NCBI GenBank assembly: GCA_029378245.1
Contig: JARKIF010000082.1
Location: 62,001 to 126,000, forward strand
Origin: Roridomyces roridus
Lineage: Eukaryota > Basidiomycota > Agaricomycetes > Agaricales > Mycenaceae
Direction: 5' to 3'
DNA length: 64,000 nt
The translations under genes and the position numbers were made by a program. Positions 4,565 through 58,479 of the stretch are shown here, piece after piece (position 1 is the first letter of the stretch; each line of letters begins with the position of its first letter). The notes under the pieces were generated by a model, which ran no database searches, was not told the origin of the DNA, and was given only the letters and a program-made list of their open reading frames with translations.

Positions 4565-5701
4565 CTAGTTGTCAATGGCACCCTTCTCATACTCGATCAC
4601 GCTCTTCTTGGCAAGGGGTACTGGCGTGCCATGTTGAGCTAGCTCGCGTTGGCGACGAGCTAGGGCCGTCTTGTCCACCCGCGCCTTGGGAACGAACCCG
4701 ACTGCCACATTCTCTTTGCCACGCCCAGCCCCAGCGTCCGGAGTGTCGGAAATCTCGCGGCGGGGACCCAGCTCGTCGATTGACATCAGAGAACCGGAGG
4801 GACGCATGCCAGTGTGGCTGGACGACGCGGAGGCATCGCTGCCACAGACGGAACGAGCCCTAGCCGCCAGGACCTGCAGGCTGTCGACCGGTTCCTCCTC
4901 TCTGTTGGGAAGAGGGAGAAGAGGTGTAGACGGGACGGCAGGAGAGATGGGGTCTTGGACAACGCGAGTAGCGGCGGGCGTGGTGGGCTCATCATGTTGC
5001 GCCATGTTCTTGTCGCCGACGTACGCCTCGTCGACCAAAACGTCGGGGAGATGGGGGTAACTCGCAAGCCACGAAGACTCGGGGTCGTCGACAGGTTCAG
5101 CTCGACTCGCCGTGGAAGAGGCGAAACCAGGTGCGGTTGGCGGGTGACGAGCCTCGTCCTCGACAACGACGGGCAGTTCAGCAGCGACCTTTGGCACGGC
5201 TACTCTATGGCCGGGTCCGGCGAAGAAACGATAGCCAACATAGATAAAGGCGCACGCAGCGACCGCGGTAAACCAGATGGGCATTGCTTCAATGGCGGTG
5301 AAGGAGGACGCCGGAGCGGTCGGGGAGGGTGCAGTTGAAGGGGTAGGCGTAGGCGTGACAGTGATATACGCAGTGGATGTTGCTATGACCGTCGAGGGTG
5401 CAGCAGTGACTGTCGATGTAGATATCGCCGTGACGGTGCTGGGTATCGCGAAAACCGTAGTGGTCTCGCGTAGTGTGATTGTAGTGGGTGTAGGTGCAGG
5501 AGCGGCCAATAGATGCAATAAAAACCGATTTTTGTGGATCATTTCACGGATGAAGAATATTGCGCGTAGAAGGCCTCCGCCGAGCGAGGCGATGAGGACC
5601 ATGCCCAGTCGGGGGTGCCTACAAGCCATATGAGCGAGATGATCGGGAACTGGACTGGGCGAGACGAACCCTTGTACAAAGTCGACTATAAACTGCCACA
5701 T
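4565..5701 (-). CDS. Module partner protein, copy 1: single-span, Ser/Thr/Pro-rich, basic tail
   Basis: I do not recognise this protein. One uninterrupted frame of 378 codons runs from the ATG at 5701 (MWQFIVDFVQGF). It has an N-terminal hydrophobic stretch (VLIASLGGGLLRAIFFI), then about 80 residues rich in Thr, Val, Ser and Pro with repeated TVT/STV units, a membrane span (WFTAVAACAFIYVGYRFF) and a long hydrophilic tail. The tail contains SSWLASYPHLP, a KEN tripeptide in GRGKENVAVGF, and ARRQRELAQHGTPVP close to the end. SWLAxYPHL, KEN and RELAQHG recur in the mirror copy at 29926-31225; KEN recurs in copy 3. It is transcribed away from the multi-span gene at 5935 across 233 bp, so the two probably share a promoter. 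Secreted-side Ser/Thr/Pro regions are usually O-glycosylated; a surface role is inference. Confidence 0.7.
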   Translation of the reverse strand: MWQFIVDFVQGFVSPSPVPDHLAHMACRHPRLGMVLIASLGGGLLRAIFFIREMIHKNRFLLHLLAAPAPTPTTITLRETTTVFAIPSTVTAISTSTVTAAPSTVIATSTAYITVTPTPTPSTAPSPTAPASSFTAIEAMPIWFTAVAACAFIYVGYRFFAGPGHRVAVPKVAAELPVVVEDEARHPPTAPGFASSTASRAEPVDDPESSWLASYPHLPDVLVDEAYVGDKNMAQHDEPTTPAATRVVQDPISPAVPSTPLLPLPNREEEPVDSLQVLAARARSVCGSDASASSSHTGMRPSGSLMSIDELGPRREISDTPDAGAGRGKENVAVGFVPKARVDKTALARRQRELAQHGTPVPLAKKSVIEYEKGAIDN

Positions 5702-5934
5702 ATCGACTGAGAGAGAATCTGAAGAGAGAAAGGTAAGTTTGTTGACGTATAAGTACGCGTTTTTGTTCGCCTTGCGCCGGCTTGATGGCCGATGCACGGG
5801 CCGTACCTCTCATACTTAGATCAGCGAGGTTATCTGTGTTGTGGTTGTTTGGTGTGATGGCCGAGTGGACGTCGACTGGTAAGCGAGTCTAGGTGGCTGA
5901 CACTCAATTATACATCTTGTCCTCTACCACAACA
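5702..5934. promoter_or_regulatory. Shared divergent promoter region, module copy 1
   Basis: This 233-bp gap lies between start codons pointing away from each other. The same arrangement with different sequence is found at 29817-29925 and about 56040-56327. No defined promoter element is claimed. Confidence 0.5.
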
Positions 5935-7739
5935 ATGCCTTCTCTCGTATTCCCAATTTCCTCTCTCCCCCGCAGCTTCGGTGGCCTTTTGTTCGGTGTT
6001 CTCAAGATCTTCAACGTCGACAATCAGCCAGTGCTCGTCGTTCCCGAGTACAGCACGCCGCCGCCCACCAAGACCACTCCAATTTATCTACCACCGACGA
6101 GATGCATCCCAGGCCCTTCCAGCAGCCCCAGCGAGTTCCCCGACACTGCGCTCCTCGGGCTTATCGCCACGGTCATCATCGGTTTCGTTTACATCGTTTG
6201 CACAAGATTTGACGCTTCTCCTCCCGAAACACGCCCTCCTCCTCCACCCAAACCCAAGAAATTGAGGCCAACATCATCCTCTTCCACCAGAGATCCGTGG
6301 TCGCAGGTCATATGGGCGTATCTTGTCATAATCGTCTTTGGAACGCCCATTGCATATCACCTCTACTTCGACAAACCCCGACTCGTCGGTCATATGGGCA
6401 CACAAATGATGCTCATGGTGGAGAAGGCTTTCCTCAAGGCATGGGATAGCGTCGAGTCCCTTTTCAGTGTCAACATCGTTCCGCATTGGCGGCAATATCT
6501 CAAGATCGGGTTTCACGCCTTCACTGGCCATTCGCTGGGTCTCCTCCCCTTCTTCATCTACCGCCGATGCTACGGTCCTGTCGTGCGCATTTTACAGACC
6601 CCTGCACCTACGTGGTTCTCTCTCCCTTGGATCGTACCCGTGGCTCTTTTCGCCTCCACCTCCAAGCTCAGCTGGATTCTTTGGTTCACATACTGCTCTA
6701 TGGTCAACAAGCACCCGAGCCTGCAAGCGATGCACGACTGGCTACTCCGCCTGCCGTCTGCCATATGTTCACTGATCGGTACAACGCATTCCTTGGATAT
6801 ATGGGTAAGTTCCATTCCTAAATGCGTTCATCCGTCGTCTGACGACAAGCATAGATGATCTTCGGACCGTTCAGTCTCAATATAGCCATGTTGGCCCTTC
6901 TCACCGTCGTGTTGACCATCCATGGCATTCCCTGGGCCCTCAGGACGATACATCGGCACCAACATTTCATCCGTTATATCTTACGTCTGGAAACGATTAT
7001 GGTCGCGCTTATGACTTGTTTCTGGGGCATCTACCTGCCAGTTCTCATGTTCTGGTTCCAATATAGACACTGGCCTACGGAATCTCGGCGTCTTTGGCAA
7101 TCGATCTATTGTCCGGAGGCTCGCGCAGAGACGAAACGGATGCTTCGAGCGCTTTTGGAGAGTAACCTGCGTTTCAAGGAGGAAAGGATTCGGGAGTTTT
7201 CCACGCACGGACGTGAGCTGCGTCACTTACGTCTGGAAACGATTATGGTCGCGCTTATGACTTGTTTCTGGGGCATCTACCTGCCAGTTCTCATGTTCTG
7301 GTTCCAATATAGACACTGGCCTACGGAATCTCGGCGTCTTTGGCAATCGATCTATTGTCCGGAGGCTCGCGCAGAGACGAAACGGATGCTTCGAGCGCTT
7401 TTGGAGAGTAACCTGCGTTTCAAGGAGGAAAGGATTCGGGAGTTTTCCACGCACGGACGTGAGCTGCGTCATGAATTATGGGAAGCAATCGGGGTCTGTA
7501 TGGAGACATGGAGGACGTTACATCTTATTCAGAAACTGGTGAGTCGATACCCTGATTCCCCTCGTTCATTTCTGACCACCATGCAGCTCATTGTCATACC
7601 CATTGCGATTTTGTACGGCCACTTTTATCTCGTGCGTAACATCCAACCATGTTCATCCTCTTCCTTATCTCTACGTTAGATGCCTGCAATTCGTAGTCGG
7701 TGGTACAGCTGGCGTTTCCGGCGTCGAGGCCGAATTTGA
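5935..7739 (+). CDS. Module multi-span membrane protein, copy 1
   Basis: I do not recognise the family. The start at 5935 (MPSLVFPISSLPRSFGG) matches copy 2. Exons 5935-6804, 6855-7538, 7587-7631 and 7680-7739 are all phase 0. The exon 1 length (870 nt) and exon 3 length (45 nt) are identical in copy 2. The order is: hydrophobic N-terminus; conserved TTPIYLPPTRCIPGP; span TALLGLIATVIIGFVYIV; proline-rich loop; about five further hydrophobic segments; the exon 3 span LIVIPIAILYGHFYL; then a short basic tail (YSWRFRRRGRI) and stop. That suggests about seven membrane spans with a cytosolic basic C-terminus. An in-frame 82-codon tandem duplication (6980-7471) doubles one span and the following loop. 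It is paired head-to-head with the gene at 4565-5701. Confidence 0.75.
6980..7471 (+). repeat. Perfect 246-bp tandem duplication inside exon 2
   Basis: Bases 6980-7225 and 7226-7471 are identical as far as I can read. The unit is 246 bp (82 codons), so the frame is kept. Copy 2 has a single unit: its exon 2 is 438 nt against 684 nt here, exactly 246 shorter. The doubled part covers the span TIMVALMTCFWGIYLPVLMF and a charged loop. It is either very recent or an assembly collapse/expansion artefact. Confidence 0.95.
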
Positions 7740-7852
7740 GCTTCCAGTCTCGATGGTATGTTTTTTGTTCTTTCATGCTTCTTTCATATTGAACTCCCGT
7801 TTAGACATATACCCTTTTTCTCTCTCTCTTCGCCTTTTAACAACAATACTCA

Positions 7853-8173
7853 GTTGAGAATCGGTTGGCGGCAGTATCGGGGCGACCAGTAGAAGTGCTC
7901 AACGCAACGACAAGTTCGAGACACTGCGAGAGAGGAACCTGCATCCAGAGGGACAAGAACGAGACTATCGGTGCGGCCATGAAGATCGTCGGGGACGCCC
8001 AACTATTTTCGCCACCAGCAAGTCTCTTACCTCCAATTTTTGGTCCTAAAGCAGTGTTTTTGTTCTTTTGTCGTGTGGGTTTCTTTTCACGTTCGTATGG
8101 TTAGTTGCTGATATTTTCGTCAGTACGAGCCGCGCTTGGGTCGTCCTGTTCCGTCCGTCTCCCGACCGCCGAG
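7853..8173 (+). repeat. Conserved 3' flank of the multi-span gene, copy 1
   Basis: The stretch starts near TTGAGAATCGGTTGGCG and ends near CCCGACCGCCGAG. It recurs at 27834-28150 (-) and 54104-54430 (-). Shared landmarks are GTGCGGCCATGAAGA, GGGGACGCCCAACT, CGCCACCAGCA and, after an acceptor-like CAG/TAG, GCTTGGGTCG. Indels shift the frame between copies, so it is more likely untranslated or regulatory than coding, although a spliced small exon cannot be excluded. Confidence 0.6.
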
Positions 8174-8334
8174 TTTTATACCCGCAGCTTCGTTTAGCTT
8201 GCACCGAATTAGTCTAGAAACTGTACATGAACGAGATTTTTATCTGCTTCAGAATACTTAGCTCTTGTGAACATCTGAGCATCACGACACTGGCATCGCT
8301 CTTGATCTCGGCGTCCATCATCTGACAGAAGCGG

Positions 8335-10267
8335 ATGTCGAGGAAAGGCTGGAAAGCGCAGTACCGGCTTCCGCCCAGCTCTCCTCGTCGTTCGACGACC
8401 TCCTGGGCAACCCTTTTGCTTACCGGAATCCTATCGGCTGTTTTGGCCCTGTTCGCTCAAGAACATTTTATTCGTCAGCGACCACCGGCCCCCTCTCTTT
8501 CACCAACATGCCACCCACCATTACCCAACATCTTCGCTCAAACGCCAATCCACAGAGGCTTTCCCGGCATAAATAAAGCCCTCCAAGACATCGACGCCGT
8601 CGTAAACCGGACTTTTTTCGCTGGGGGCATCGACGGATTGGCTGTGGCAGTCGTCACGGGTGAAGGCGCCATCTACGAAGCTACGATGGGTCCACTTAGA
8701 GCCAACGAGACGACGCCCGAATCTCGTGGAGCTATTGACAGACATAGCATCTTTCGTATTGCGTCTGGGTCGAAACTATTCGCAACTCTCGAGACTCTGG
8801 TGCTCAGGGAGAGAGGAGCTTTGCAATTGTAAGAGTCCAAAAGCAGTGGCTACTCTCTGCTCATTCTCGTTCTATAGAGATGACCCCGTGGACAAGTTCT
8901 TCCCGAATTTTTTGTATGCGCCGGGCGGTTGGATAGACGGAGACGAAACGCCGGCGACCTCTGGTCAGATAACCTTGCGACAACTGGCGAGCCATATGTC
9001 TGGTCTCACACGCGAGTTCCCGCGTGGAGATATGAAGAATTGGCCCTACTCTCTAGAAGGAACGGGCCCACCCCCAATCAACGGCCGTCCCTTTCCCACC
9101 ACGGAGGAAGTTATCAGCGGCCTCAAGAACTACCCATTGACAGTTCCGACGTATTCGTATCCTATTTATTCTAACGTTGGGATGGCGCTACTTGGGCAGG
9201 TCGCTGTGGCGGCCAACGCAGCGTTTGAAGCGTCCCGAGATTCGCCTGGGACGTGGGCTCAGCTTGCACGACGTGATATATTTGGTCCGCTGGGCATGAA
9301 CGGTAGTAATTTTGTCGTTACTTCAAGCAACAAGGCGCATGTCGCAGTGGCATCCAAGAACAGTGACGAAGTGGTGAATACTTTCCGATGGTTCCCTGTT
9401 CAATTGCTCATGGTTTCTGAAGGACTTGGATTTCCTGGATGCCATGTCGTGCTCCGGAGGTCAAATGAGTTCCCTGTCGGACTACATCAAAGTCATGCAG
9501 ACGATTCTCGACCCAACGCGTCCAGAAAGTCTCCTGCCTCCCCATGTCATACGGGAGTGGCTGCGGCCAATTCATGGCTAGATGGACGACACAACCGAGG
9601 TTGGGATGCTTTGGGAGATCGAGAAGATCAGAGACTCGTACAGCCGTCCGGTCAGGATATTCCAAAAATGTGAGTGACTGATGAGCGCATTTGCAACTCA
9701 CTCACATTCGACAGTGGGCGTTCTCGGTGCATCTCGCAGCGTGTTTGCAGTCAACCAGGAAATGTCTTACGGTGTTGCCATTCTCATGACTGGCACTTCG
9801 TCTGCGGTCGGGGATTTGGCTCTCGATATCTTTCGGCGACTGCAGCCCACCTTGGATCAGTTGTTGGCGTCCAGCGCGACTCGATTGTATTCCGGTGGCT
9901 GGATCTCAGACGACTCGGAAATAATCATCGTCGTCAAGGAGGGCTCTTTGTGGGTCACAAAACTCCAACTGAAGGGATCAGACGTTCTGCGTCTCATTCA
10001 GGATAACGACAAACCCGAACCCATAACTGTGTGGTCTACAGGCAGGCGTCATGAATTCCGGTGAGCATCGTCAACTGTTCAATTTCTTCTTTTACACCTT
10101 TCAGAATGGCGTTCACCGGGGCTTCTCGCGTCTGCATGCGTTCTTGGGCCACAATTGACGACGGGTTCGCTCGTGGATATCCTACTGATTTGATTTATTT
10201 TACAGATAAAGTCGACGGCATGAAACTACATGTGCCGTCGGTCAACGTTGTCTTCGCCCGGAAATGA
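8335..10267 (+). CDS. Beta-lactamase-like serine hydrolase, membrane-anchored
   Basis: Member of the class C beta-lactamase / penicillin-binding-protein-like family (PF00144 type); fungal members hydrolyse esters or amides and the substrate is unknown. A short basic N-terminus and one hydrophobic span (ATLLLTGILSAVLALFA) suggest a type II membrane or secreted protein. Catalytic motifs are visible: SGSK (SxxK, within FRIASGSKLF) and YSN in YPIYSNVGMALLG. Proposed exons are 8335-8828, 8878-9373, 9423-9670, 9716-10060 and 10105-10267. Splicing at 9373/9423 gives DLDFLDAMSCSGGQMSSLSD; without that intron the frame appears broken. The protein ends SVNVVFARK. The mirror copy at 25061-27672 is a pseudogene, so this is probably the only working one here. 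Confidence 0.85.
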
Positions 10268-10452
10268 TGAACAGGCTGGTTTCGGTGTGCTTGTTTCGAT
10301 TTAGAGGTTCTTTGGATGTCGATTCTCGGTGGAGACGGGGATGAATGCCCGAAGGTCAAGACGGAGTGATGGGTTTCGGAGCTCCTAAACGGAACGCCTA
10401 CGGCAAAAACGAGTCATAAATATTCTGGTCGACTCCTTGATCTGCAACATCC

Positions 10453-11563
10453 ATGTCCTATCCAACCTACCCTCCCGACGCGTTCGCGCAAACGACGCTG
10501 AACAGGCAGGACGCGGCGGCTTATCTGGACCGCATCAACTTGCCTGCGTTGCTCCTGGACTCTCCACCCTCGCTCGAGCTGCTCTCGACCGTTTTCCTGG
10601 CACATCTTGAGCAAATCCCAAAAGATACCAGTCCGCTGCATGTCCCAGAGTCGCAGTGGAGTGGCCCCTCAACGCCAGTGAAGCTCGGCAGTGCATTGGC
10701 CGATGGCATGCCACTCGGCTCACGCGCCTTTGACCGTATCGTGCATGAGCACAAGGGCGCGTACTGCTTCGCCATTAACGCGACGTTCGCTGGGCTCCTT
10801 AGGACCTTTGGATTTACGGTCTCGGAACTTGGGGCCCGCGCGTGTCGTTCGCTTGGGAATGATCCATTGACACATGCTGATGGGTGGTACTGGGGAACTC
10901 TGACGCACGAGGTTCTGGTGGCGGGTTGGGAGGGAAGTGCGGACAGGTACTTGGTGGATGCTGCATGGGGACCATGGAACCTCGCATTGCCGTCAGTCGT
11001 CTTCATCTGCCTCTTTTATTTGTCTCAAATTTCTCAGGATCAAGCTCACGACCGATCCGGCAGGCGAGACCATATTGGGGCTCAACGAGTTTGAGGCTTA
11101 CCGCTTGGTTTTTGAGGAGCTGCCCGTCTCCCCGAACAGAGTGAAGCCACTGGACGTCATTCCCGGATACACCCTCTATCGACGCATCGCGCCCGTTGGC
11201 ACACCTCATACTTTGCCGATAACACCCAACTCCCCCGGCTATTGGTCCCCCATTTTCCACTTCCACCTCAGCTCCCTCGGTCTCTCCGATTTCATGCTCT
11301 TGAACCATTTTTCTGCGACGCATGGCCTTGCGACGTTCACTCCCTTCTGGCTCGTCACGCGTCTCATACCAGGTGGAAAGGGCGCCCGACGGTCGATGAT
11401 GTACGCCGAGAAGGCAGGCGACGAGGCCAGGCGTGCAAAGGTTTATACCACTGGCGGTCCGGAGGCTCAGGGAAGTGACGAGGGGCGCGACGTCGAGTGG
11501 GTCGATATGGAGACCGGCCCGCTCAAGGAATATCTTTCGCGGGAGCTGGGATACAAGTTTTAG
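10453..11563 (+). CDS. Arylamine N-acetyltransferase (NAT), copy 1
   Basis: Transfers an acyl group from acyl-CoA (acetyl-, or in some fungi malonyl-CoA) to arylamines or hydrazines; in fungi this detoxifies plant and microbial aromatic amines. The start is at 10453 (MSYPTYPPDAFAQ). Exons are 10453-10991 and 11038-11563. The Cys-His-Asp triad is visible: Cys in HKGAYCFAINATF, His in THEVLV, Asp in YLVDAAWGP. The N-terminal part also shows the usual LERIPKD-like motif as LEQIPKDTSPLHVP. The C-terminal half carries PGYWSPIFHFHLSS and LNHFSATHGLATFTPFW. The protein is about 350 residues, the usual size for fungal NATs. An equally intact second copy lies at 23721-24834 on the other strand. Confidence 0.92.
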
Positions 11564-11691
11564 AAGGCTAGAGTCTCGCGTGGACCTAAAATTGAAAAAT
11601 AGCTCGCCGATTCTGGCCCTGTACTAGCCATCGACCACGCCATCGAACGCAGCTCATCTCGATTGTCGGTCTCCGTGGGCGGAGATCTTGC

Positions 11692-14676: not shown

Positions 14677-15216
14677 AGGGAGGAAAAGTATGGATTTCGT
14701 TTGCCTGTGTCCGTCCTTTTAACCCCAAGTTATATTCTTTCAACCCTCATACCCAGTTACTTGCCCGTACCTGTGTTGAGGTTCAAGAATGCCCGAAATG
14801 TTCAACTTCCCATGGAGAATGTGGTAATCCGACGGCAGTGGGGGGTGATTTTGTTTTAATTCTGCTATCTCCATCGACTGTGCCCCCACCGAACCACCGC
14901 CGATCTCAAAAGTCAAGAGTCTGGATCTGCAATTGTAGAAAATTACTTTGGAGCCCTGAACCTCTAAATAACCGATCCACTTTGGATGCAATAGGAAGTA
15001 GCAGATGCGAAGAAGTGGTCTGGAACCCACACTGCTATCAAGTCCTGTTTCGAAAACATAACGAGAGGGTGCAAACATAGATCTTGAGTCTTGCCCAGCT
15101 TTGTTCTTGCGGTCGGCCATAGCCCGCCCGGATCGCGATTCCCCTATAGATGGTCAGAGTCTCATTCCACTCGCGAGATAAAAGGGAGACGCACAAAGAA
15201 TGTGGCTACTTACAAC

Positions 15217-15980: not shown

Positions 15981-16082
15981 TTAGTTACACACCTTGAGAT
16001 TATTTGTAAACACGGATTTCGCATAATTGAGGACGTTACCCAGTTCATTATACCCCTGGCGTACATGGAAAAATCATAAACC

Positions 16083-23239: not shown

Positions 23240-23720
23240 AACTACGAGCATGTACAATTGGAAATACACGTGCTATACATGGCCGTCGGTATGCACAGAA
23301 CAGGCGTGCCCTCCACTTCCAGGAACTAGTTTTTACTGGAATGTCCCAAAGCGTGGCTCAGTACAGTGCGTATCACGTGAGCTCTGGTTGAAAACGAAAA
23401 TGCGGCAATGTCAAGACAGTAGCTCCCCTCATACCCGTGGTGAAGGTAATGCGGGCACTCTCTTCACCGAATACATGAGCCTGCGAGCCAGAAATGTCGG
23501 AAAGGAACGCAAAAGACGCGCAAATCGGTACTTTTCTCAAGGTCAATCGGGAGGCTTCATTATGAGAACTTGGCATACTTATAAGCGGGGGCGATATTGA
23601 CGTCAAGCAAGATCTCCGCCTACCGAGACCGACAATCGAGATCAGCTGCGTTCGATGGCCAGTACGGGGCCGGAATCGGTGAGCAATTTTGGAATTTTAA
23701 CACGCGAGACTCTAGCCTTT

Positions 23721-24834
23721 CTAAAATTTGTATCCCAGCTCCCGCGAAAGGTACTCCTTGAGCGGGCCGGTCTCCATATCGACCCACTCGACGTCGCGCC
23801 CCTCGTCACTTCCCTGAGCCTCCGGACCGCCAGTAGTATATACCTTTGCGCGCCTGGCCTCGTCGCCTGCCTTCTCGGCGTACATCATCGACCGACGCGC
23901 GCCCTTGCCACCAGGTATGAGCCGCGTGACGAGCCAGAATGCGGTGAACGACGCAAGGTCATGTGTCGCGGAGAAATGGTGCAACATCATGAGATCGGAG
24001 AGACCGACAGAGCTGAGGTGGAAGTGGAAAGTGGGGGACCAATACCCAGGGGAGTTGGGTGTTATCGGCAAGGTATGAGATGTGCCGACGGGCGCGATGC
24101 GTCGATAGAGGGTGTATCCCGGAATGACGTCGAGTGGCTGCGCTCTGTTCGGGGAGATGGGCAACTCCTCAAGAACCAAACGATATGCCTCAAACTCGTT
24201 GAGACCTATTATGGTCTCGCCCGCCGGATCGGTCGTGAGCTTGATCCTAAGAAACTTGAGACAGAGAAGAGATACCGCAAATCAAGAAGACTGACGGCAA
24301 TGCGAGGTTCCCTGGACCCCACGCAGCATCCACCAAGTACCTGTCCGCACTTCCCTCCCAACCCACAACCAGGACCTCGTGCGTCACAGTCCCCCAGTAC
24401 CACCCATCAGCATGCGTCAACGGATCATTCCCGAGCGACCGACACGAGCGGCCTCCAAGTTCCGAGACCGTAAAGCCAAAGAACCTGAGGAGCCCACCAA
24501 ACGTCGCGTTAATGGCGAAGCAGAACGCGCCCTTGTGTTCATGCACGATGCGGTCAAAGGCGCGTGAGCCGAGTGGCATGCCATCGGCCAATGCACTGCC
24601 GAGCTTCACCGGCGTCGAGGGGCCGCTCCAATGCGACTCTGGGACGTGAAGTGGACTGGTATCTTTTGGGATCTGTTCAAGATGTGCTAGGAAGACGGTC
24701 GAGAGCAGCTCGAGCGAGGGCGGAGAATCTAGGAGCGACGCGGGCAAGTTGATGCGGTCCAGATAAGCCGCCGCGTCCTGCCGGTTCAGTGTCGTTTGCG
24801 CAAACGCGTCGGGCGGGTAGGTTGGATAGGACAT
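23721..24834 (-). CDS. Arylamine N-acetyltransferase (NAT), copy 2
   Basis: Mirror paralogue of the NAT at 10453. Exons are 24834-24296 and 24246-23721. Catalytic Cys (HKGAFCFAINATF), His (THEVLV) and Asp (YLVDAAWGP) are all kept. By eye about 11 of the first 180 residues differ from copy 1, including Ala-Tyr to Ala-Phe next to the catalytic Cys, TFG to FFG, and PWN to PGN; later LLNHFSATHGLA becomes MLHHFSATHDLA. No stop or frameshift is seen, so both copies look active, and the changes near the active site could alter substrate range. Confidence 0.92.
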
Positions 24835-25144
24835 GGATGGTGCAGATCAAAGACCAGAATATTTTATATGACTCGATTGTTTGGCGTAGGCGTTCCGTTT
24901 AGGGGCTCCGGAGCGCCGATCACTCCGTGTTGACTTTCGGGCATAAGTACATCGACCGAAGAAAAACTTATTCAGCCCGTCTCCACCGAGAAAACTAAGG
25001 AGAATCGAGATACAAAGAAGCTCTTCATCGAACACGAGCACTGGAACTGTTGTTCAAGTATTATTTCCGGGCGAAGACAAGGTTGACCGACGGCATATGT
25101 AGTTTCATGCCGTCGACTTTATCTGTAAAATAAATCAAATCAGT

Positions 25145-25816
25145 GGCTGACTTTCCATAAGGAAATTTTTAGTTTTCATGCATTTTTCGCGGTGCCAGCG
25201 CCGCCGTCACACTGAGTTTCACCTCGTTTAATGTTGAAATCTATTCGGACTTGTTTCCATAAGCCAAAAGAAATGCCACCGGTAACATGTAGTGTTTTTC
25301 CATCCTGATCCTTTGCTACACGACGCTGAAGGCATTACCGACGCGCCTCTGGCCTCGGCATCGAGACATTGTTGACCCGAACCCTCGGCAGTGTTGCATT
25401 GGCGAGATCGACGCGTCTTTAACGCGTTTTTGACATGTTGCGAGATCGTGAACGCACTCGGAGGCTCTGCCGGTGACTACTTTGCATCAGTCATCAACTC
25501 GAGCCGCTAAATCGAGAGCTAACTGCGCTTGTCGCCTCGATTCGGCATGCATTGATTGTATCATTTACCTGATGGAATGTCGAGATCTGCTAAACGCCGG
25601 TCATTCTGACAGTTTATTGAAGAAATCAAATCTGCAGAGGGGGGGGGGGGGGGGGGTACCCCTCTGCAGATTCATTCAGATTTAAGGTTTGTAGAGGGCT
25701 CAGAGCTGCGTATAAAAGAAATTTTAGCTCCGGGGTCCTGACAGGTGTCGCCGGCAGCTCGGCAAAGTGACGAAAAATCGTTGAAAACATTTGATTTCCC
25801 TTATGGAAAGTCAGCC
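25145..25816. mobile_element. Non-autonomous DNA transposon with 18-bp TIRs and AGT target duplication
   Basis: The left end GGCTGACTTTCCATAAGG is a perfect inverted match to the right end CCTTATGGAAAGTCAGCC, with weaker matching inward for about 70 bp. The 672-bp interior has no long frame. The flanks read AAATC-AGT before and AGT-AGGAT after, and the intact left arm reads AAATCAGTAGGAT at the same place, so the target duplication is AGT (3 bp). A 3-bp duplication is used by PIF/Harbinger and CACTA elements, but these ends match neither terminal consensus I know. Confidence 0.9.
25627..25677. repeat. 18-G run inside an inverted repeat
   Basis: Within the transposon, AATCTGCAGAGGGG is followed by a run of 18 G in total, then TA and CCCCTCTGCAGATT. 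The halves pair as a hairpin of about 14 bp. The exact G count may be an assembly guess. Confidence 0.8.
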
Positions 25817-27833
25817 AGTAGGATATCCACGAGCAAACCCGTCGTCAATTGTGGCCCAAGAACGCATGCAGACGCGAGAAGCCAAGGTGAACACCATTCT
25901 GAAAGGTGTAAAAGAAGGTCTTCAACAGTTGATTACGCTCACCGGAATTCGTGAAGCCTGCCCGTAGACCACACAGTGATCGGTTCGGGTTTGTCGGTAT
26001 CCTGAACGAGACGCAAAACGTCCGATCCCTTCAGTTGGAGTTTTGTGACCCACAAAGAGCCCTCTTTGACCGCGATAATTATTTCCGAGTCGTCTGAGAT
26101 CCAGCGACCGGAATATAATTCAGTCGCGCTGGACGCCAACAACTGATCCAAGGTGGGCTGCAGTCGCCGAAAGATATCGAGAGCCAAATCCCCGACCGCA
26201 GACGAAGTGCCAGTCATGAGAATGGCAACACCGTAAGACATTTCCTGGTTGACTGCAAACACGCTGCGAGATGCACCGAGAACGCCCACTGTCGAATGTG
26301 AGTGAGTTGCAAATGCGCTCATCAGTCACTCACATTTTTGGAATATCCTGACCGGACGGCTGTACGAGTCTCTGATCTTCTCGATCTCCCAAAGCATCCC
26401 AACCTCGGTTGTGTCGTCCATCCAACCATGAATTGGCCGCAGCCACTCCCGTATGACATGGGGAGGCAGAAGACTTTCTGGACGCGTTGGGTCGAGAATC
26501 GTCCGCATGACTTTGATGTAGTCCGACAGGGAACTCATTTGACCTCCGGAGCACGACAGGCATCCAGGAAATCCAAGTCCTTCAGAAACCATGAGCAATT
26601 GAACAGGGAACCATCGGAAAGTATTCACCACTTCGTCACTGTTTTTCGAAGCCACTGCGACATGCGCCTTGTTGCTTGAAGTAACGACAAAATCACTACC
26701 GTTCATGCCCAGCGGGCCAAATATATCACGTTGTGCAAGCTGAGCCCACGTCCTATCCTAGGCGAATCCCGGGACGCTTCAAACGCTGCGTTGGCCGCCA
26801 CAGCGACCTGCCCAAGGAGTGCCATCCCGACGTTGGAATAAATAGGATACGAATACGTCGGAACTGTCAACGGATAATTTTTTAGGCCGCTGATCACTTC
26901 CTCTGTGGTGGGGAACGGCCGTCCGTTGATGGGGGGTGGGCCCGTTCCTTCTAGAGAGTAGGGCCAATTCTTCATATCTCCACGCGGGAACTCGCGTGTA
27001 AGACCAGACATATGGCTCGCCAACTCTCGCAAGGTGATAGGACCAGAGGTGGCCCGAGTTTCGTCTCCGTCTATCCAACCGCCCGGCGCATACGAAAAAT
27101 CGGGCAAGAACTTGTCCACGGGGTCATCTCTATAGAACGAGAATGAGCAGAGAGTAGCCACTGCTTTTGGACTCTTACAATTGCAAAGCACCTCTCTCCC
27201 TGAGCACCAGAGTCTCGAGAGTTGCGAATAGTTTCGACCCAGACGCAATACGAAAGATGCTATGTCTGTCAATAGCTCCACGAGATTCAGGCGTCGTCTC
27301 GTTGGCTCTGAGCGGACCCATCGTAGCTTCGTAGATGGCGCCTTCACCCGTGACGACTGCCACAGCCAATCCGTCGATGCCCCCAGCGAAAAAAGTCCGG
27401 TTTACGACGGCGTCGATGTCTTGGAGGGCTTTATTTATGCCGGGAAAGCCTCTGTGGATTGGCGTTTGAACGAAGATGTTGGGTAATGGTGGGTGGCATG
27501 TTGGTGAAAGAGAGGGGGCCGGCGGTCGCTGACGAATAAAATGTTCTTGAGCGAACAGGGTCAAAGCAGCCGATAGGATCCCAGTGAGCAAAAGAGTTGC
27601 CCAGGAAGTCATAGAACGACGGGGAGAGCTGTGTGGAAGTCGGTACTGCGCTTTCCAGCCTTTCCTCGACATCCGCTTCAGATGATGGACGCCGAGATCA
27701 AGAGCGATGCCAGTGTCGTGATGCTCAGATGTTCACAAGAGCCAAGTATTCTGAAGCAGATAAAAATCTCGTTCATGTACAGTTTCTAGACTAATTCGGT
27801 GCAAGCTAAACGAAGCTGCGGGTATACAACTCA

Positions 27834-28150
27834 GGCGGTCGGGAGTCGGACGGAACGACCCAAGCGCGGCTCGCACTACGAAAATCTCAGTGAATATTCA
27901 ACAAAGGTGAGAAGAAACCCACGCGACAAAAGACCAAACACACTGCTTCAGGACCGAAATTGGAGGCAAGAGACTTGCTGGTGGCGAAAATAGTTGGGCG
28001 TCCCCGATGATCTTCATGGCCGCACCGATAGTCTCGTTCTTGTCCCTCCGAATGTAAGTTCCTCTCTCGCGGTGTGTTGAACTCCGTCGCCGCGTTGAAC
28101 GCTTCTACTGGTCGCCCCGATGCTGCCGCCAACCGATTCTCAACCGAGTA
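27834..28150 (-). repeat. Conserved 3' flank of the multi-span gene, copy 2
   Basis: Counterpart of 7853-8173, reading on the minus strand from TTGAGAATCGGTTGGCGGCAG to CCCGACCGCC. It is very close to copy 1, with single-base indels that change reading frame partway. Confidence 0.6.
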
Positions 28151-28257
28151 TTGTTTTAAAAAGGCGAAGAGAGGAAAGAAGGGTATAGATCTAAAGCGAA
28201 AATTCGAACATGAAAGAAGCATGAGAGAACAAAAACGTACCATCGACACCCGGAAAC

Positions 28258-29816
28258 TTAAATTCGGCGCCGACGTCGAAACCGCCAGCTGTACCATCGA
28301 CTACGAATTGCAGGCATCTGTCGTCAAGATGAGGATGAGGATAAATGTGATTGTATGTGACGCACGATATAAAAGTGGCCGTACAAAATCGCAATCGGTA
28401 CGAGTATAAGCTGAATGACAGTCAGAAACGAACGAAGGAATACCAGCATCGACTCACCAGTTTATGAATAAGATGTAACGCCCTCCATGTCTCCATACAG
28501 ACCCCGATTGCTTCCCATAATTCATGACGCAACTCCCATGCATGCGTGTAAAACTCCCGAATCCTTTCCTCCTTGAAGCGCCGGTTACTGTCGATGAGAG
28601 ATCGAAACATACGTCGTGTCTCTGCGCGGGCCTCCGGACAGTACATCGATTGCCAAAGACGCTGTGATTCAGGAGGCCAGTCGTTGTGCTCGACCCAGAA
28701 CATGGAAATTGGCAAGTAAACGCCAAAGCAAAAGGTCGAGAACGCAATGGCGATGAGTTCTAGGCGCATGGTTAAACGGATGTCATCGCGGTGACGACGC
28801 ATCATCCTGAGGGCCCAGGGAACCGCATGGATGGTCAGCACCACGGTGAGAAGAGCTAGCGTGATTATATTGAGACTGAGGGGTCCGAACATCATCTGCG
28901 CTTCTCGTCAGTCCATGAACGAGCGGATTGAAACAAAGGAATGTACCCAGATATCCCCGGACTCTGGCGCACCGACCAGTGAATATACTGCAGACAGCAG
29001 TTGGCGTAGCCAGTGGTGCATTGCTTGCAGCCTCGGGAGTTCGGGTTCTACGCAGTAGTATATGAACCAAGGAATCCAGCGGAGCTTTGAGGTTGAGGCG
29101 AAAAGACTGAATGGAACGATGTAGACCAGGGAAAACATGGGAAGCACAGGGGTCTGTAAAAGAAGCACGACGGGGCGGTAACAGCGGCGGTAGGTGAAAA
29201 AGACGAGGAAACCCATCGAGTGGCTTGCGAGGGCGAACGAGGCCATCTTGAGATTTTGTCGCCAATGCGGAAGGATATGGACACTGAAAAGGAACTCGAT
29301 GCTATCCCATGCATTCAGGAAGGCATTCTCCACCATGAGCATGATTTGTGTGCACAGGTCGCCGACGAATCGAGGCTTGTCGAAGTAGAGATGATGTGCA
29401 ATCGGAGTCCCAAAGACGATTATGGCGAGATATACGCATATGACATGCATCCATGGATCTCTGTCGGATGATGTTGGGTCCAATTTCTTGGGTTTGGGTG
29501 GAGGATGAAGTGGAGGGCGTGTGTCGGGAGGAGAGGCGTGAAATATTGTGCAAACGATGCAAACGAGACCGATGATGATCGTGGCGATGAGCCCGAGGAG
29601 CGCAGTGTCGGGTAACTCGTTGGGGCTTCTGGAAGGGCCTGGGATGCATCTTGTCGGGGGCAGATAAATTGGAGTGGTCTTGGTGGGCGGCGGCGTGCTG
29701 TACTCAGGAACGACGAGCACTGTCTGATTGTCGACGTTGAAGATGTTGAGAACACCGAACAAAAGGCCACCGAAACTGCGTGGGAGGGCGGAGATTGAGA
29801 ACACGAAGGAGGGCAT
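28258..29816 (-). CDS. Module multi-span membrane protein, copy 2
   Basis: Mirror paralogue of 5935-7739, 470 residues. Exons are 29816-28947 (870 nt), 28895-28458 (438 nt), 28410-28366 (45 nt) and 28317-28258, all phase 0. The start is MPSFVFSISALPRSFGG, with conserved TTPIYLPPTRCIPGP, the same series of spans, the 15-codon exon 3 and a basic tail (YSWRFRRRRRI). By eye about 14 of the first 100 residues differ from copy 1, clearly more than in the neighbouring NAT. It lacks the tandem duplication and looks intact. Its head-to-head partner begins at 29926. Confidence 0.75.
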
Positions 29817-29925
29817 TGTTGTGGTAAAGGACAAGATGTATAATTGAGTGTCAGGAGAGTGGAAACATCAGACGCGTCCATGTCAACAAACCAAAGCATA
29901 TATACCCTTAGACTTGACCACCACC
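29817..29925. promoter_or_regulatory. Shared divergent promoter region, module copy 2
   Basis: A 109-bp gap between divergent start codons. A TATA-like CATATATACC lies at about 29897-29906, some 20-30 bp before the partner gene's ATG. Confidence 0.5.
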
Positions 29926-31225
29926 ATGTTGCACACTCTGGTACATGGCTACCTTATTCCCCTTTTCGACTGGACAGACTGCGGTCCTTCGCACTACTTT
30001 GGCTTGTTCGGTGGGTTCGCTGGCGGTGCGACCCTTGGCGGGCCTGGTTTTCAGGCCTCGGTCGCTGCGTGGGCCAACGAACAATCGAAGAATATGGCGG
30101 CCGTGTTCGCTCGCCTCGCCCAACCCGCCACGCCCAGTCCCTCGCTTCCTCCTTCCTCCGCCCCAACGCCTCCAGCGACCGTGACCGTCACTAGCACAGT
30201 GACATCCCTCCCCACCCCACCACCACCACCACCACCTCGACCATCTTCAACTTGGCGACCGTGACAGTGACCGCTCCAGCGCAGCCTGCCCCTGCCCCGT
30301 CCACAGTAGTCCCGCCGCAATCTACGGCCTCGCGTTCCCAATTCGATAACTTGTCCGTCATCATCATCCTCTGCGCACTGGGCACATTCCTAGCCATTTG
30401 CTCCTACATATGGATCCCTGGCCGCTGCAAGGCAACAGCTCCCGGCGTGGTACTCGCCACTGTTGTTGAGCAGCCAGCCGTCCTGGACGTTCCTCAGGCA
30501 GCAGCTCCAGTCCTTGCCGTCGCGCCGGATCTTCCCCTCATCGACGATGCTCTGGCTCTGGCAGATCTCCCGCCCAGTCCACCCCCTCGTTGGCGAGCAT
30601 TTTCGACCCCATGGAGCACCCAGCGCCGTCATCCCCGTGGCTCGCCGGCTACCCTCATCTGGCCATTGTTGCAGGGCCCCCGTCGTCGCCCTGCCCTTCT
30701 GAGCCTTCGGTTCCTTTGTCGACCCTCAGCAAGGGCAAGGGAAAGGCACGCGAGCAGACCGATGTACGTCGTGTCGTGGACCGCGTCTCGGCCTTCTGCA
30801 GCTCTTCTCGTACCAACCTCCGTGACATGTCCTTAACGGAGCTGGGTCCGCCTCGCGCAGAGAACGACGCGGTGGAAGATACCGGCGTTCTTCGGCGTCT
30901 GGCTGCCGATTTCGCTACCGAAGGCGTTGGGGCGGGCCCACATGCTGGTCCATCTTCCACTCGTCATGCGACAACCTCGCGGATGACCATGGCAGAGTTC
31001 GGTGACGAGAGCGCGTCGGCTGCGGGTGACGAGAAGGAGAACAAAGCCAAGTTGCGCAAAGATGAAGGGCGGGCTCGTCGGGGCCGTCGAGCAAGGAGGA
31101 CGGTCCCCAAACCGCCGTCGCCCGGCGTGCAATTGGCGATGCAGAATGTGAAGGGCCGAGGCCCTCTTGATCGCGAGCTGGCGCAGCACGGCGTGCCAAC
31201 TGGCGTGTGGCTCGTGCAACAGTAG
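29926..31225 (+). CDS. Module partner protein, copy 2 (frame changes twice)
   Basis: Unrecognised; counterpart of the gene at 4565-5701. From ATG 29926 (MLHTLVHGYLIPLFDW) the frame runs through a Pro/Thr-rich region (TVTVTSTVTSLP), then must switch between about 30180 and 30250, inside a CCA repeat, to continue as ATVTVTAPAQPAPAP and a span (LSVIIILCALGTFLAICSYI). A second switch near 30560-30590 leads to SSPWLAGYPHL, GDEKENKAKL (KEN) and GPLDRELAQHGVP. Tail motifs SWLAxYPHL, KEN and RELAQHGxP match copy 1; the rest hardly aligns. The first switch could be an unrecognised intron; I found no good splice pair for the second, so indels or sequencing errors are possible. Confidence 0.55.
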
Positions 31226-34368: not shown

Positions 34369-36427
<2,059 letters not shown>

Positions 36428-36476
36428 TTTTTTTTGTAACGATAGTACGAGTCCATGAAATTATTCCACGAATCTA

Positions 36477-53830: not shown

Positions 53831-54103
53831 AGAGGCTCCGGTATCCCATAATGTCGATTCGTTTCCGTATAGTAGTAATACCGTATATACACCTATCCCA
53901 GTTGTTGAGTCAAGGATTCCATTTCCATTTCCGCTTCGCACACTCGCATTCAAACAGACCGCGATTTCAACAAGCAATTCATCGTCCCAGGGATTCACCG
54001 AAGCAAGCAGATGATGATATTCGAATCCAGATACAGAGGAGAGAGATAAAGAAAAGAAAATTTGATGCAAGCTATGTTAGTTGCGGGTATATGTAACCTG
54101 GCA

Positions 54104-54430
54104 CTCGGCGGTCGGAAAGCGAACAAAACCAAACGACCCAAGCACTGCTCGCACTAGAAGGACAAGTCAGCTCCGTCGACAGCAACATAGAAAAAACACG
54201 CACACGTCAAACGACTCGAACACCCCTTCAGAATCTTGAAGAAGTTGAGGTAGGAAGTTTTGCTGGTGGCGAAAAAAAGTTGGGCGTCCCCTACAGTCTT
54301 CATGGCCGCACTAGAAACCTCGCTCGTGTCCCTCGAATTAGATCCTCTCTCGTGGTGGTTGAGGTTGACGCTGCGTTGGGCGCTTCTTCTGGTCGTATGG
54401 TATTCTTCGCTAGCCGATTCTCAACCGAGT
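54104..54430 (-). repeat. Conserved 3' flank of the multi-span gene, copy 3
   Basis: Reading on the minus strand, it keeps TTGAGAATCGGCTAGCG, GTGCGGCCATGAAGACTG, GGGGACGCCCAACTT, CGCCACCAGCA, a TAG acceptor-like site before GCTTGGGTCG, and CCGACCGCCGAG, in the same order as copies 1 and 2. It is more similar to those copies than the adjacent coding sequence is. Confidence 0.6.
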
Positions 54431-54478
54431 GCTGCAGGTAGAGAGGACATGATGGCTTTCATTCTGTGTCGAGTTTAG

Positions 54479-56039
54479 TTATGGTAATAAAATGAAAAGT
54501 AAAGAGATATACCTGCGGCGTCGCCAGCGCCAATATTGTACCCTTGGGATTACGTTGCGCACCACGGGCATCTACTCGATAGTGAGTGGAAGAAAAAATC
54601 AGTGGCAATGGGACGCACAATGTAGAAATAGCTATAGATGATGATGACGGGCGCGGCGATGAGCTGGGAAACGCGGGTCAATGACGGAAGTGGACCGAAA
54701 AATAAGATGCTCACCAATTTCTGACTCCAATGTGCGCGTACCCACATCGACTCCCATAGCAAACGCACAAGCTCGTGAAACTCTTTCTTCTGCATGATCC
54801 TCCAGTTGTTGTGGCGTTCCTTATAGAACCGGCGGAACTGTGCCAATTGTTCGCGCGCCTCTGGCGAAGAAGAGGCGAGGTCCTCTAAATCGTGAAACCA
54901 CCTTCGAATTCCACGACCCAGTGGCTTGAGTTCGGATGACGTAAAGGAAATATCCGCCAAAAAGCGAAAGATCACCGTAGCAATCCAGGTCCAAAGGGAT
55001 ACAATTGCAACAAAGATCGGTAGACCACCAGGACGAAAAGATCGGACGATGGCCCAAATTGTGGACGGAAGGTGGAGCAGCGCCAAGTAAACGGTGCGAA
55101 GACAGGCCCACGAGGAATAGATCACCAGAGGTCCGGTGACGATCTGAATGAAGTGCATCAGTACCAAAAACTACAAACGAAAGGGGCAGGAGTACCGAAA
55201 TAGTTTCCCATGAGAAGGTGGGACTAGCCATTACAACGCGGCGTCGAATGTCTTCGATGCTTGGTGTGTATCCGTCACGGCAATAGAAGTAATAATACAT
55301 CCAGAGTATCCGACGGAGCTTGGGATGCAAAGCCCACAGCAACCACGGACCCAGCGTGAGGCAGCTTCCCGAAAATATTTCGAGGTATTGAGCTTTGTCG
55401 AGACGGACTCGGTGGCGGGAGATGAAGGCGACAGCGCGTCGCTGGGCGAGGACGATGAGGAGCCCGGCGAAATGACCGACAACCGCGAGGAATGCCGTCT
55501 TGAGATAATACAGGCCGTAGTCGTAGATATGTTGGATAAGACTGAGAATATCTAAAACCCTGTTCTCGAGTACCAGTGCTAGGCGGTATAGCATCAACTG
55601 GGGAAACAAGCTGTTCGAAGCGGGCGTCTTCGTCGTGGACGCATAGGCCAAAATGGTCATGAAGAGCGCGAAGAAGAACGAGAGCAGCCGGACGCGATTC
55701 TGTGGTGCTATGTCGGGCTCTGTGACGGGCTCTGGTGGTACGGCTGCCGTTGGAGTTGGCGCACGGCGAGCGTCTTTGAAGGTCGACCAAATGGTGAAGA
55801 CGACGCTGGCGAAAAGGAGGGCGGCCAATCCATACATAACGACGTAGGGGAGCTCGGATGGCTCGCTGGAAGTCGGGCTTGGAAGGCATCGTGTAGGCTC
55901 GAGGAAGATGGGGGTGGTGCGAGTCGGCGTGTACTTGACAACAGGCGGCGACTGCGTGGAGATGTGGAAAGCCTTGCTGGCGAAGAACAGGCCGGCGAAG
56001 CTGCGGGAGGGCGAAGAGGGCAGAAATCGAGTAGGGCAT
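54479..56039 (-). CDS. Module multi-span membrane protein, copy 3, diverged
   Basis: Third family member. Exons are about 56039-55196, 55143-54715, 54663-54619 (again exactly 45 nt) and 54571-54479. Shared with copies 1-2: RSFAGLFF near the N-terminus, RTTPIFLEPTRCLPSP, the same run of spans, SQKL before the exon 2 donor, LIAAPVIIIYSYFYI in exon 3, and a basic tail (QYWRWRRRRY). Elsewhere residue identity is low. The ATG homologous to the other copies (56039) is two bases out of frame with RSFAGLFF; an in-frame ATG at 56089 gives an alternative N-terminus. Either that start is used, or the gene is damaged, or bases are missing from the sequence. The tail runs about ten residues past the stop position of the other copies. 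Confidence 0.65.
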
Positions 56040-56327
56040 GGTGGTGGTACTGAATCAAGATGTAAATGCAGTGTCAGCCACCCTTGCACGGAAGATGGAC
56101 AAGAAATTAGGCGCTACTCTACTTATCTGCTCAACGACGTTGGAACGACGCGTCTGGATGAACGCTATGTGGATGCCTTTGAGTCGGAGGTCAGTCTAGT
56201 CTCCTTCGACAGAGCTGCAGCCATCAAATCATTTCCTTCTCTCTTCTTCCCCACCACGTCCACACGCGTAAGTTCATCTCGCCTAGCTCAGTTTGGCTCA
56301 AACTCACTCTCAAACCTCTTCAAAGGG
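56040..56327. promoter_or_regulatory. Shared divergent promoter region, module copy 3
   Basis: Gap of up to 288 bp between divergent starts (shorter if 56089 is used as start of the multi-span gene). Confidence 0.4.
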
Positions 56328-57504
56328 ATGCTGTCTTCTCTCTACAGTGTCTTTCACGGTCTGGCCGCCCTCTTCCTCGCGACACATGTCGCAGTCCACC
56401 TCTCGCCAGACGGCTCCCTACCACACTGGCGTTTGCCCACCCTGGATAATGTACAACACACAGCGCATTCTGCGCTTAACACCGTCCTTTCTGTGGCCAA
56501 CGCCTTCCTCCCGCCTCGCCCTATCCACTACAACTCGGTAGACGCGTTGGCCATGTGGCTCGCAGAAACGCAACAGGAGCTCGACATGGCACACCGCGAA
56601 ATATCGCGCCTTCAGCACCTAGAGCGTCAAGTTCTTTATAAGCAGAGTCTGTCTGCACAGGGTACCCTCAACTCGCCTCTCACCCTCGGCCAGTGTCCTG
56701 CGTCACATCTCCACCACCTATCTCTCCCCATCCTACCTCCTCGCCCGCCGCTTCCCGCCTCAGAGCTCACACCCGCAGCACTCCCTGACTCTCTCCCTCT
56801 GAGCGACCCATCTGAGCCCGTGTGGTCACGTCTGATTGACCGCATGATGCAGCACCACAGTGGGCCGCCCTTGGTGTCGCTCTTAGTGTGCATCTTGCTC
56901 TTCATTGTCATTTGGTGCATCGCACGGAGGTTGGAAGTGCGCATCGGGAACCGTCGGCAGCATCCCTGCCAGGAAGATGTCCCTCTCGTCGCCGTCATAC
57001 CGCCCGCCAACCGACGACAAGCCCCTGCGGCTGGATCTCTGACGCGACTCCGTCGGCGAGGATGGTCTCGCCCTAGCCAGCTCCAAATCCCGGCGGTTCA
57101 AGCTATATTCGCCGGTTCAGCCGCAGCGCTGCCTCTTCTACCGCCAATGACGCCACCCCCGAACGACCTCCGCTCGCCACCTGCTCCCGAACGTCTCGAT
57201 TTCGCTGCTGCGTCCCATTCCACGCCGTTCCTGGAGAATGTACTCGCTTCAGTGGGACTGCAGGACGTTTCCATGGACGACGCGGTCGATGATACGTTTG
57301 CGGAACACGCTGGCGTGATTGACCCTTCCACTCTCGCATGGCCGCCCATCAGGCCCCGTGAAACACCCTGGGTTGTAGCCACAATGCATTGTACCTTGCC
57401 GTGGCAGGGGGGTACATTTAAATAAGGTGACACCTTGACAAGGCAGCCATCATGTGCCCACATTGCAATGTACCTTTGGCAGTGCACAGCAAAGAAATTA
57501 AAAT

Positions 57505-57591
57505 GCAGCAAGGGGGAATTGAACCCAAAACCTCCTGCTGTCATCCAGGCAGAGTGGATGGCAGACACTTTAACCAACTGAGCTAGAGAAG
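57505..57591 (-). other. tRNA-like segment (degenerate) inside the transposon
   Basis: Read on the minus strand it has an A-box-like TAGCTCAGTTGG and a B-box-like GGTTCAATTCC at tRNA spacing, but the D stem and acceptor stem do not close well. Probably tRNA- or SINE-derived, not a working tRNA. Confidence 0.5.
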
Positions 57592-57668
57592 AGTGACAGA
57601 GGGTTCTCCACATCAAGCCAAACTATGCCCTCAGACTGAGATCCAGCAGTGAATCGGCGGTTAGACGC

Positions 57669-57693
57669 GGGTTAGGTTAGGTTAGGTTAGGTT
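57669..57693 (+). repeat. Short telomere-like GGTTA repeat
   Basis: About five GGTTA units inside the transposon. Agaricomycete telomeres are usually TTAGGG, so this may be chance. Confidence 0.7.
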
Positions 57694-57889
57694 TGGTGCA
57701 CCCCTAAACAAATGACATCCCCCCCGCGGCTTCGTCTGTGAGTGGAAGAACTCGTAATCCACCGTGAATGGGCGGTTAGGGGCGATATCTGCTGTGAATG
57801 GTGATTAGGGGCATCATCCAATGGGAATGACAGCATCAGATCAGGGCTGGTCAAATAGGGTAGTAGTGGCCTCAAATAAAGCACCCAGT

Positions 57890-57976
57890 ATGGTTCTGTA
57901 GTGTAGCAGTAAGCAGTCATTCCTAATATAGTAATCCCTATGCTGGAGGTCTGGGGTTCAATTCAGCCTGCTGGCA
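57890..57976 (+). other. Second tRNA-like segment (degenerate)
   Basis: GTAGTGTAGCAGTAAGC followed after about 45 nt by GGGGTTCAATTCAGCC resembles A and B boxes. T-stem pairing is poor, so it is not called as a tRNA gene. Confidence 0.35.
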
Positions 57977-58479
57977 GCTATTTTGCCCTGCTGTGGCTGG
58001 GTGCAATTCATTTAGCAAGGCTGTGACAGGGTACAATGCAATGTGGGCACACTGTGGCTGGGTTGTCAAGCTGTGGCCACAATTAAATGTACCCCCCAGG
58101 CATGACAGGGTACATTGCCTATGTGGTACAGCTACACCTCCGTGAAACTCCACGTGCATCTGAGGTCGTCGTGGCCCCTCGCATCGCCATTCTGGAGCCC
58201 GAGTCTTCGGCCGGGGCTTTACGGCGGGAGATGGAGGAAGATCAACGTCGAACGGACGAAGCTCTGGCCCGGGCACGCCAGGCAGCAGAGAACCGGCTCA
58301 TGTCTGCATGGGCTGCAGGCCGCGTTCCTATTTTGCGGTCACCACTGCACCCACGCTTGGGGCTCGTGAATATGCCGCTGCAGAGGGAGACTGTTGGGGT
58401 GGTGGCGGAGGAGGAGGAGAAGGAGAACACGCCTCCGGAAGTTGTAGGTAAGGGGAAGGGGAAGGCGCGTGCGCCATAG

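Follow-up and report, generated by a model that had tools for sequence, protein, structure and literature searches.

Divergent A/B gene pairs in the window

We analysed a stretch of 64,000 nucleotides (the window; contig C483, positions 62001-126000) from a genome assembly of 90.8 Mb in 501 contigs, in which a gene for a multi-span protein, here called A, repeatedly lies head-to-head with a divergently transcribed partner gene, B. Protein matches carry the name Roridomyces roridus, an agaric of the family Mycenaceae. The three A/B pairs of the window (pairs 1-3) were found where the original prediction had placed them, with start codons 233, 109 and 288 nt apart, and the coordinates of all features are collected in Table 1. 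The best reading of the sequences is that the pairs belong to a lineage-restricted family of membrane gene pairs that has probably diversified by duplication and ectopic gene conversion.

Pair 1 is the only pair in the window with both genes open. B1 has hydrophobic segments near residues 33 and 137 and a Thr/Pro/Ser-rich linker, and its tail carries the tripeptide KEN. Its allele lies at C101:302525-303646 with 96% identity, where C101 is treated as the other haplotype of C483 because the A genes share order and orientation on the two contigs (C483/C101: 22481+/278884+, 35188-/291574-, 67935+/306821+, 91816-/336716-, 118020-/362556-, 132050+/378372+). The A1 allele on C101 lacks the 246-bp duplication and encodes 470 residues, versus 552 in the window; the duplication could be a recent event or an assembly artefact. 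The A and B matches of pair 1 are separated by 3,175 bp in C101.

The original gene calls stood for A1, A2 and B1, which are open, and had to be revised for the rest, as B2 and A3 are frameshifted and B3 is split by a repeat. Relative to the open C101 allele (L006), B2 carries changes of +2, +18 and -1 nt; the allele is a single open frame of 426 aa, which rules out B2 as a spliced gene. Near codon 12, A3 lacks 2 nt, which breaks its ATG frame; the 15 other cassettes compared stay in frame at this point, 14 of them with the full length and one with 3 nt missing. The B3 frame terminates inside the 777-bp repeat, with the KEN part beyond it, and the first 349 residues match only themselves in the genome. 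The deletion that removes 2.8 kb of pair 3 from the other haplotype has its junction at C101:362556/362557, with C101:361690-362556 equal to window 54821-55687 and C101:362557-362607 equal to window 58450-58500 (100% in both cases).

Table 1 Features of the window (positions counted from its first nucleotide).
Feature	Position	Strand	Details
B1 partner gene	4565-5701	-	single exon, one open frame, 378 aa; NCBI protein P0007
Divergent spacer, pair 1	5702-5934		ATG to ATG, 233 nt
A1 multi-span protein	5935-7739	+	4 coding exons (5935-6804, 6855-7538, 7587-7631 [45 nt], 7680-7739); 552 aa including internal duplication
Tandem duplication in A1 exon 2	6980-7471	+	perfect, in-frame, 2 x 246 bp
Intron-like stretch (GTATGT...TTTAG)	7756-7804	+	just past A1 stop, before 3' element; read from sequence
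Inverted segmental duplication, left arm	7824-11565		mate 23719-28173
3' element copy 1	7855-8205	+	intron 8075-8123
Inverted segmental duplication, right arm	23719-28173		mate 7824-11565
3' element copy 2	27790-28142	-	intron 27876-27922
A2	28258-29816	-	4 coding exons (29816-28947, 28895-28458, 28410-28366 [45 nt], 28317-28258); 470 aa, open
Divergent spacer, pair 2	29817-29925		ATG to ATG, 109 nt
B2	29926-31225	+	frameshifted in C483 haplotype
3' element copy 3	54090-54425	-	intron 54154-54203
A3, divergent subtype	54479-56039	-	NCBI protein P0013
Stretch missing from other haplotype	55688-58449		2,762 bp; removes A3 start, spacer and most of B3; from match coordinates
B3	56328-58479	+	coding frame interrupted by repeat
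Repeat inserted in B3	57364-58140	+	777 bp, ~100-nt inverted ends, 79% alike

Size of the family and linkage of A and B

The prediction had counted three copies; genome-wide there are about 60 A loci. A1 exon 1 as query gave 55 places, and the A3-type protein P0013 gave 84 exon matches; merged by hand, these amount to 60 loci on 11 contigs, at least two of them short fragments, with both haplotypes counted where both were assembled. C101 holds 26, C223 eight, C483 and C493 six each, C458 five, C379 three, C83 two, and C46, C111, C88 and C44 one each.

B1 alone recovers few relatives because B evolves faster than A, and the B search used five B queries, retaining places at E<=1e-3 and counting a divergent A within 6 kb as a partner. 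It returned 26 places, 24 of which are head-to-head with A. The queries had been picked for adjoining an A; with the five query places left out, 19 of 21 are paired, several of the 19 being alleles of queries. The fixed pairing that had been proposed is thus borne out in this genome, the other genomes having yielded no homologue. The two unpaired places are the far part of a B gene that starts beside C483:35188 and is separated from it by a 22.9-kb insertion (C483:58882), and a match to a low-complexity stretch (C223:2139971). A further nine places with weaker matches (best E between 0.002 and 0.46) were left out of the paired count, among them C101:468517, which sits divergently at 6.2 kb from an A on its upstream side, slightly past the 6-kb limit. 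Direct reading gave a partner at seven further A loci (C483:22481, C101:247300, C101:83690, C483:91816 and its allele C101:335844, C101:226464, and C483:35188), the partner at C101:83690 being displaced by 2 kb and identified from layout only.

The distances among A bodies and among B proteins correlate (Mantel rho 0.47, p 0.0013, 11 pairs), as do those of A leaders and B (0.50, p 0.0007, 11 pairs). The pairs have a short spacer in common, and strong divergence between copies, as originally proposed, is evident. Between haplotypes, the modules differ in frameshifts, in insertions and in one deletion. Compared with C101 (L038), C483:35188 has a 531-bp insertion in the A-B spacer (C483:35227-35757) and the 22.9-kb insertion within B (C483:35960-58894). 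The A gene is broken in exon 2 in both haplotypes (C483:35188 and C101:291574), and this locus was dropped as a case of an intact A beside a broken B. Beyond two B genes, at L033-L035 (C101:70001-100000), there are two copies of a kinase-like gene, with frames containing GGFSHVWYGQNL and DNA 74-79% alike.

A structured element 3' of A

At 43 of the 60 A loci, the gene is followed directly on its 3' side by an element of about 350 nt in the same orientation. A 436-nt query, for which 40 of 51 candidates were scored, found 40 places, each of them on the strand of an A and downstream of it; a second query, with 40 of 53 scored, added C101:79751, C44:15530 and C223:1199743, all just downstream of A and on its strand. 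Among the places listed from both searches, none lies outside an A 3' flank. In blastn comparisons of 16 cassettes, each one matched all 15 others in parts of the region immediately 3' of A, and between 0 and 7 of them, depending on the gene, in the middle of A; the element is more conserved than the coding middle of A.

The element contains a stretch of 47-55 nt with a GTNNGT donor (one GTAAGC), a branch-like motif and GT-AG ends in 16 of 17 aligned copies, and from these features it is predicted to be a spliceosomal intron in the sense of A. Copies 1 and 2 are preceded by an additional intron-like stretch just after the stop codon of A, and on this ground the element is taken as the putative 3' untranslated region (UTR) of A. 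A protein-coding role was ruled out, because pairwise indels fall in all three phases (17 are multiples of three, 65 and 22 are not) and there is no common frame, although the reading frame of type-3 genes may run on for a few codons (SVENRLAA) past the start of the element, as it does in the NCBI models.

The consensus fold of the 17 aligned copies has 61 pairs in 12 helices, and helices 1 and 2 join the part before the intron to the part after it. Of the cells, 96.7% are paired, versus 35-45% with the partner slid, and both-side changes occur at 15 pairs, versus 7.1 in shuffles (reached in 0/500) and 1-6 when slid; these pair counts tally sequences rather than events, and the alignment is the one from which the fold was derived. 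The column-shuffle test gave z -5.4 for the element (0/200) and -0.24 for the control, the 5' coding block of A. No Rfam family reached its gathering threshold across the window, and none appeared at E<=10 over 7750-8300. No conserved element on the B side was common to all 17 compared.

Apparent exchange of gene ends between paralogues

Synonymous divergence (dS) changes abruptly along A. Between C483:132050 and C493:41854, within one exon, the first 70 codons gave a dS of 0.10 and the following 200 one of 0.84; between A3 and C483:132050 the corresponding values were 0.17 and 0.89. The leader was lower in 16 of 16 comparisons, at least three-fold in seven of them, besides an allele pair without leader change, and barely lower in some (0.30 vs 0.33 for 226464/22481). 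Selection on the protein alone does not produce such a contrast.

The trees of the two regions also conflict. C101:226464 joins C483:22481 in the body tree (support 100/99) and C101:247300 in the element tree (99/97), and the opposite grouping was rejected in each (p 4e-41 and 0.011, respectively), for groups chosen after the distances were seen. Since body and element trees conflict in this one well-supported case, the ends of A appear to have been exchanged between paralogues, by ectopic recombination or gene conversion. B and the middle of A diverge rapidly. The shared parts of the family are the 5' coding end of A (about the first 70 codons, within a subtype) and the non-coding 3' element, which are similar at most loci; no block on the B side is shared by all 17 compared.

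Surroundings of the pairs

Pairs 1 and 2 are located at the ends of the inverted segmental duplication, whose arms are 91-99% alike by block and carry beta-lactamase-like and arylamine N-acetyltransferase-like genes. That such ordinary enzyme genes were duplicated together, that copies degenerate and that the ratio of nonsynonymous to synonymous divergence (dN/dS) is below 1 would all suit an ordinary lineage-restricted membrane complex, for transport, the wall or nutrient sensing, which expanded by segmental duplication and diverged under relaxed constraint. We regard this as somewhat unlikely, as relaxed constraint explains neither the adjacency kept at the non-query B places, nor ends that are alike at silent sites around a middle near saturation, nor a covarying 3' element.

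Near pair 1, positions 368-1111 on the minus strand match the G-alpha subunit family of Pfam (E 7.5e-7, 29 bits, under the curated cut-off). The repeat in B3 has at least 29 other near-full-length copies, 91-99% alike, in a search that scored 40 of 132 candidates. It is flanked on both sides by the 9 bases CCGTGAAAC. By eye it contains a tRNA-like stretch at ~57500-57590; ARAGORN makes no call there, and found no tRNA.

Protein features and homology searches

Hydropathy profiles of 11 A proteins showed six to nine segments, counting a weak one at the N terminus, and the description of A as seven-span-like is therefore fair and inexact. The TTPI(Y/F)LxPTRCxP mark and the basic tail are present as predicted. 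The 45-nt third exon holds for A1 and A2; its constancy in the family is unsupported, because the exon was imposed on the gene finder, which gave a model at 11 of the 18 loci tried (a twelfth model, at L006, lay on the wrong strand and was spurious), and the A-family member P0009 is longer than 45 nt at that position. B proteins have an N-terminal hydrophobic segment in most cases, one main span, a Pro/Ser/Thr-rich composition and a variable tail, which in the A3-type subgroup has a common unit around G-W-x-x-L ... R-x-x-I-V, apparently duplicated in some. KEN, proposed as a shared mark of the tail, is found in 4 of 13 B proteins (the window's three and one more), DEN or GEN in four and neither in five, as searched in the second halves; not being kept in 9 of 13, it is ruled out as a fixed degron.

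Neither protein was assigned to a known family, in line with the original prediction. No Pfam cut-off was reached by A (A1, A2 and ten members) or by B1, the first part of B3 and five other B proteins, the best match being TctB at E 0.0079 for P0012, and sequence matches in the PDB for A (E 0.07-10, HIV gp120) and B (E 0.22) were taken as chance. Protein-database matches (6, 1 and 8 proteins) were all from R. roridus and no outside homologue was found; distant relatives elsewhere may exist, because a match requires shared 5-residue words and about 8000 candidates were scored per query. A literature search, which reached few subscription papers, found no description of the family.

About seven spans and a basic tail in A, the weak G-alpha match at 368-1111 and the UniRef name of P0009, which begins 'Fungal pheromone STE3', could together suggest a chemoreceptor family, with A as a seven-span receptor, possibly G-protein coupled, and B as an accessory subunit. 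We consider this very unlikely. The STE3 mating-receptor profile (PF02076) was absent for A1 and A2 at E<=1, and no receptor profile was found for ten A members at E<=10, a listing that is incomplete above E ~0.1, where HMMER filters discard most matches. The 48 STE3 exon matches in the genome all lie away from A loci, with none on C101, C483 or C493, and the name of P0009 looks like a wrong automatic label. The profile results led to rejection of A as an STE3 mating receptor.

Comparison with known systems

The nearest layouts known to us are those of Tetrahymena MTA/MTB, Neurospora cwr-1/cwr-2 and Dictyostelium TgrB1/TgrC1, with Schizosaccharomyces pombe wtf for the pattern of conversion. 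We found no sequence relation to any of the four, the comparison being made through Pfam only.

Tetrahymena MTA/MTB is a head-to-head pair of membrane genes in an array of pairs, with type-specific parts, shared terminal parts and a putative bidirectional promoter (PMC3608545). A/B resembles it as a repeated head-to-head membrane pair, with 19 of 21 non-query B places paired and 26 A loci on C101 alone. In Tetrahymena, however, transmembrane exons are the shared terminal parts and one complete pair is assembled by segment joining (PMC3608545), whereas here there are many whole-looking copies.

The cwr-1/cwr-2 fusion checkpoint of Neurospora is a linked pair with diverged haplogroups, in which specificity is thought to lie in protein-protein contact (PMC9550227). 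Like A/B, it is a fungal linked pair of one multi-span membrane protein and a partner. It differs in having a chitin monooxygenase as CWR-1, an eight-span protein with PF11915 domains as CWR-2, and a single locus (PMC9550227), compared with dozens for A/B; neither the AA11 monooxygenase nor the PF11915 domain reached its Pfam cut-off in the scanned B or A proteins. In Dictyostelium, the highly polymorphic receptors TgrB1 and TgrC1 bind each other and are encoded side by side (PMC8129030). The likeness to A/B lies in two adjacent genes, in a different organism and with different proteins. The tgr genes are transcribed divergently.

In the multi-copy wtf family, non-allelic gene conversion is pervasive and gives rise to patchwork trees, and pseudogenes are numerous (PMC6526906). 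The A/B family is likewise multi-copy, and its dS contrast and conflicting trees point to non-allelic conversion. A single wtf gene yields poison and antidote, the proteins have membrane spans, and Pfam holds a wtf model; we know of no divergent partner or structured 3' element in wtf. This parallel is one reason to consider a selfish killer pair in the manner of poison-antidote drivers, of which one protein would harm cells or spores without the module and the other protect, while copies spread, convert and decay. Many copies on few contigs, end exchange, broken copies and the presence or absence of pair 3 between haplotypes are consistent with it. We nevertheless judge it unlikely: no Pfam family was reached by A or B, so that no relation to a known driver is indicated, and an open A2 beside a broken B2 weighs weakly against A as a poison that needs B in the same nucleus.

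Interpretation

We put the probability that the A/B family serves self/non-self or partner recognition at roughly one in three. The two genes make up a membrane-protein module whose halves are duplicated and lost together; in the recognition reading, A and B would be co-expressed at the hyphal surface, in mutual contact, with specificity carried by their variable parts. The 3' segment, as the 3' UTR of A, would control the message or provide homology for gene conversion.

Several observations weigh against recognition by a family diversified in this way. Whole-gene dN/dS is below 1 wherever it was counted (simple count, A and B; 0.56, 0.39 and 0.27 for three B pairs), and positive selection across whole genes was not seen. 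The alleles of pairs 1 and 2 are close (~96-98% alike), with no deep split. Many copies are broken, pair 3 is being lost, and A2 is open though B2 is broken, the sole such case, with an open B2 in the other haplotype. No B was found at C493:61517 (no B-like frame of at least 110 aa in 3.5 kb), at C458:2731356 (1.9 kb examined) or at C101:362556 (deleted), and in just 6 of 11 pairs is the nearest relative the same by A as by B. The element was not found at 17 of the 60 A loci (every locus on C379, C458 and C83, five of those on C223, and the two fragments). Its reverse strand folds as strongly (z -5.9), so that the fold signal is silent on strand; folds of single sequences give modest values (z -2.7 and -1.1), and 10 of 500 shuffles attained one of the pair-count measures. 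As to end exchange, a constraint on the leader at the nucleotide level could likewise reduce its dS, the choice of tree groups was made with the distances in view, and another three groupings fell short of significance (p 0.064, 0.106 and 0.157). No homologue was found outside R. roridus, within the limited reach of the search.

A more specific form of the recognition reading is a three-part diversity cassette of divergent surface partners A and B with a spliced, covarying RNA tail. The tail and the A leader might act as homology boxes for overwriting expressed copies from the array, or the tail might tie the copies into a circuit of silencing or message control, with few pairs expressed at once. 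We hold this to be quite doubtful.

To our knowledge, little is known about recognition between mushroom mycelia other than through the mating loci, and a family of paired membrane proteins that is both large and fast-changing offers a concrete candidate for it. The structured 3' element, an RNA without an Rfam match that is tied to one gene family, is a second lead. If the pairs were selfish, they would represent a two-protein fungal driver; if they were diversity cassettes, R. roridus would possess a fungal recognition repertoire unlike the known het, cwr or mating systems.

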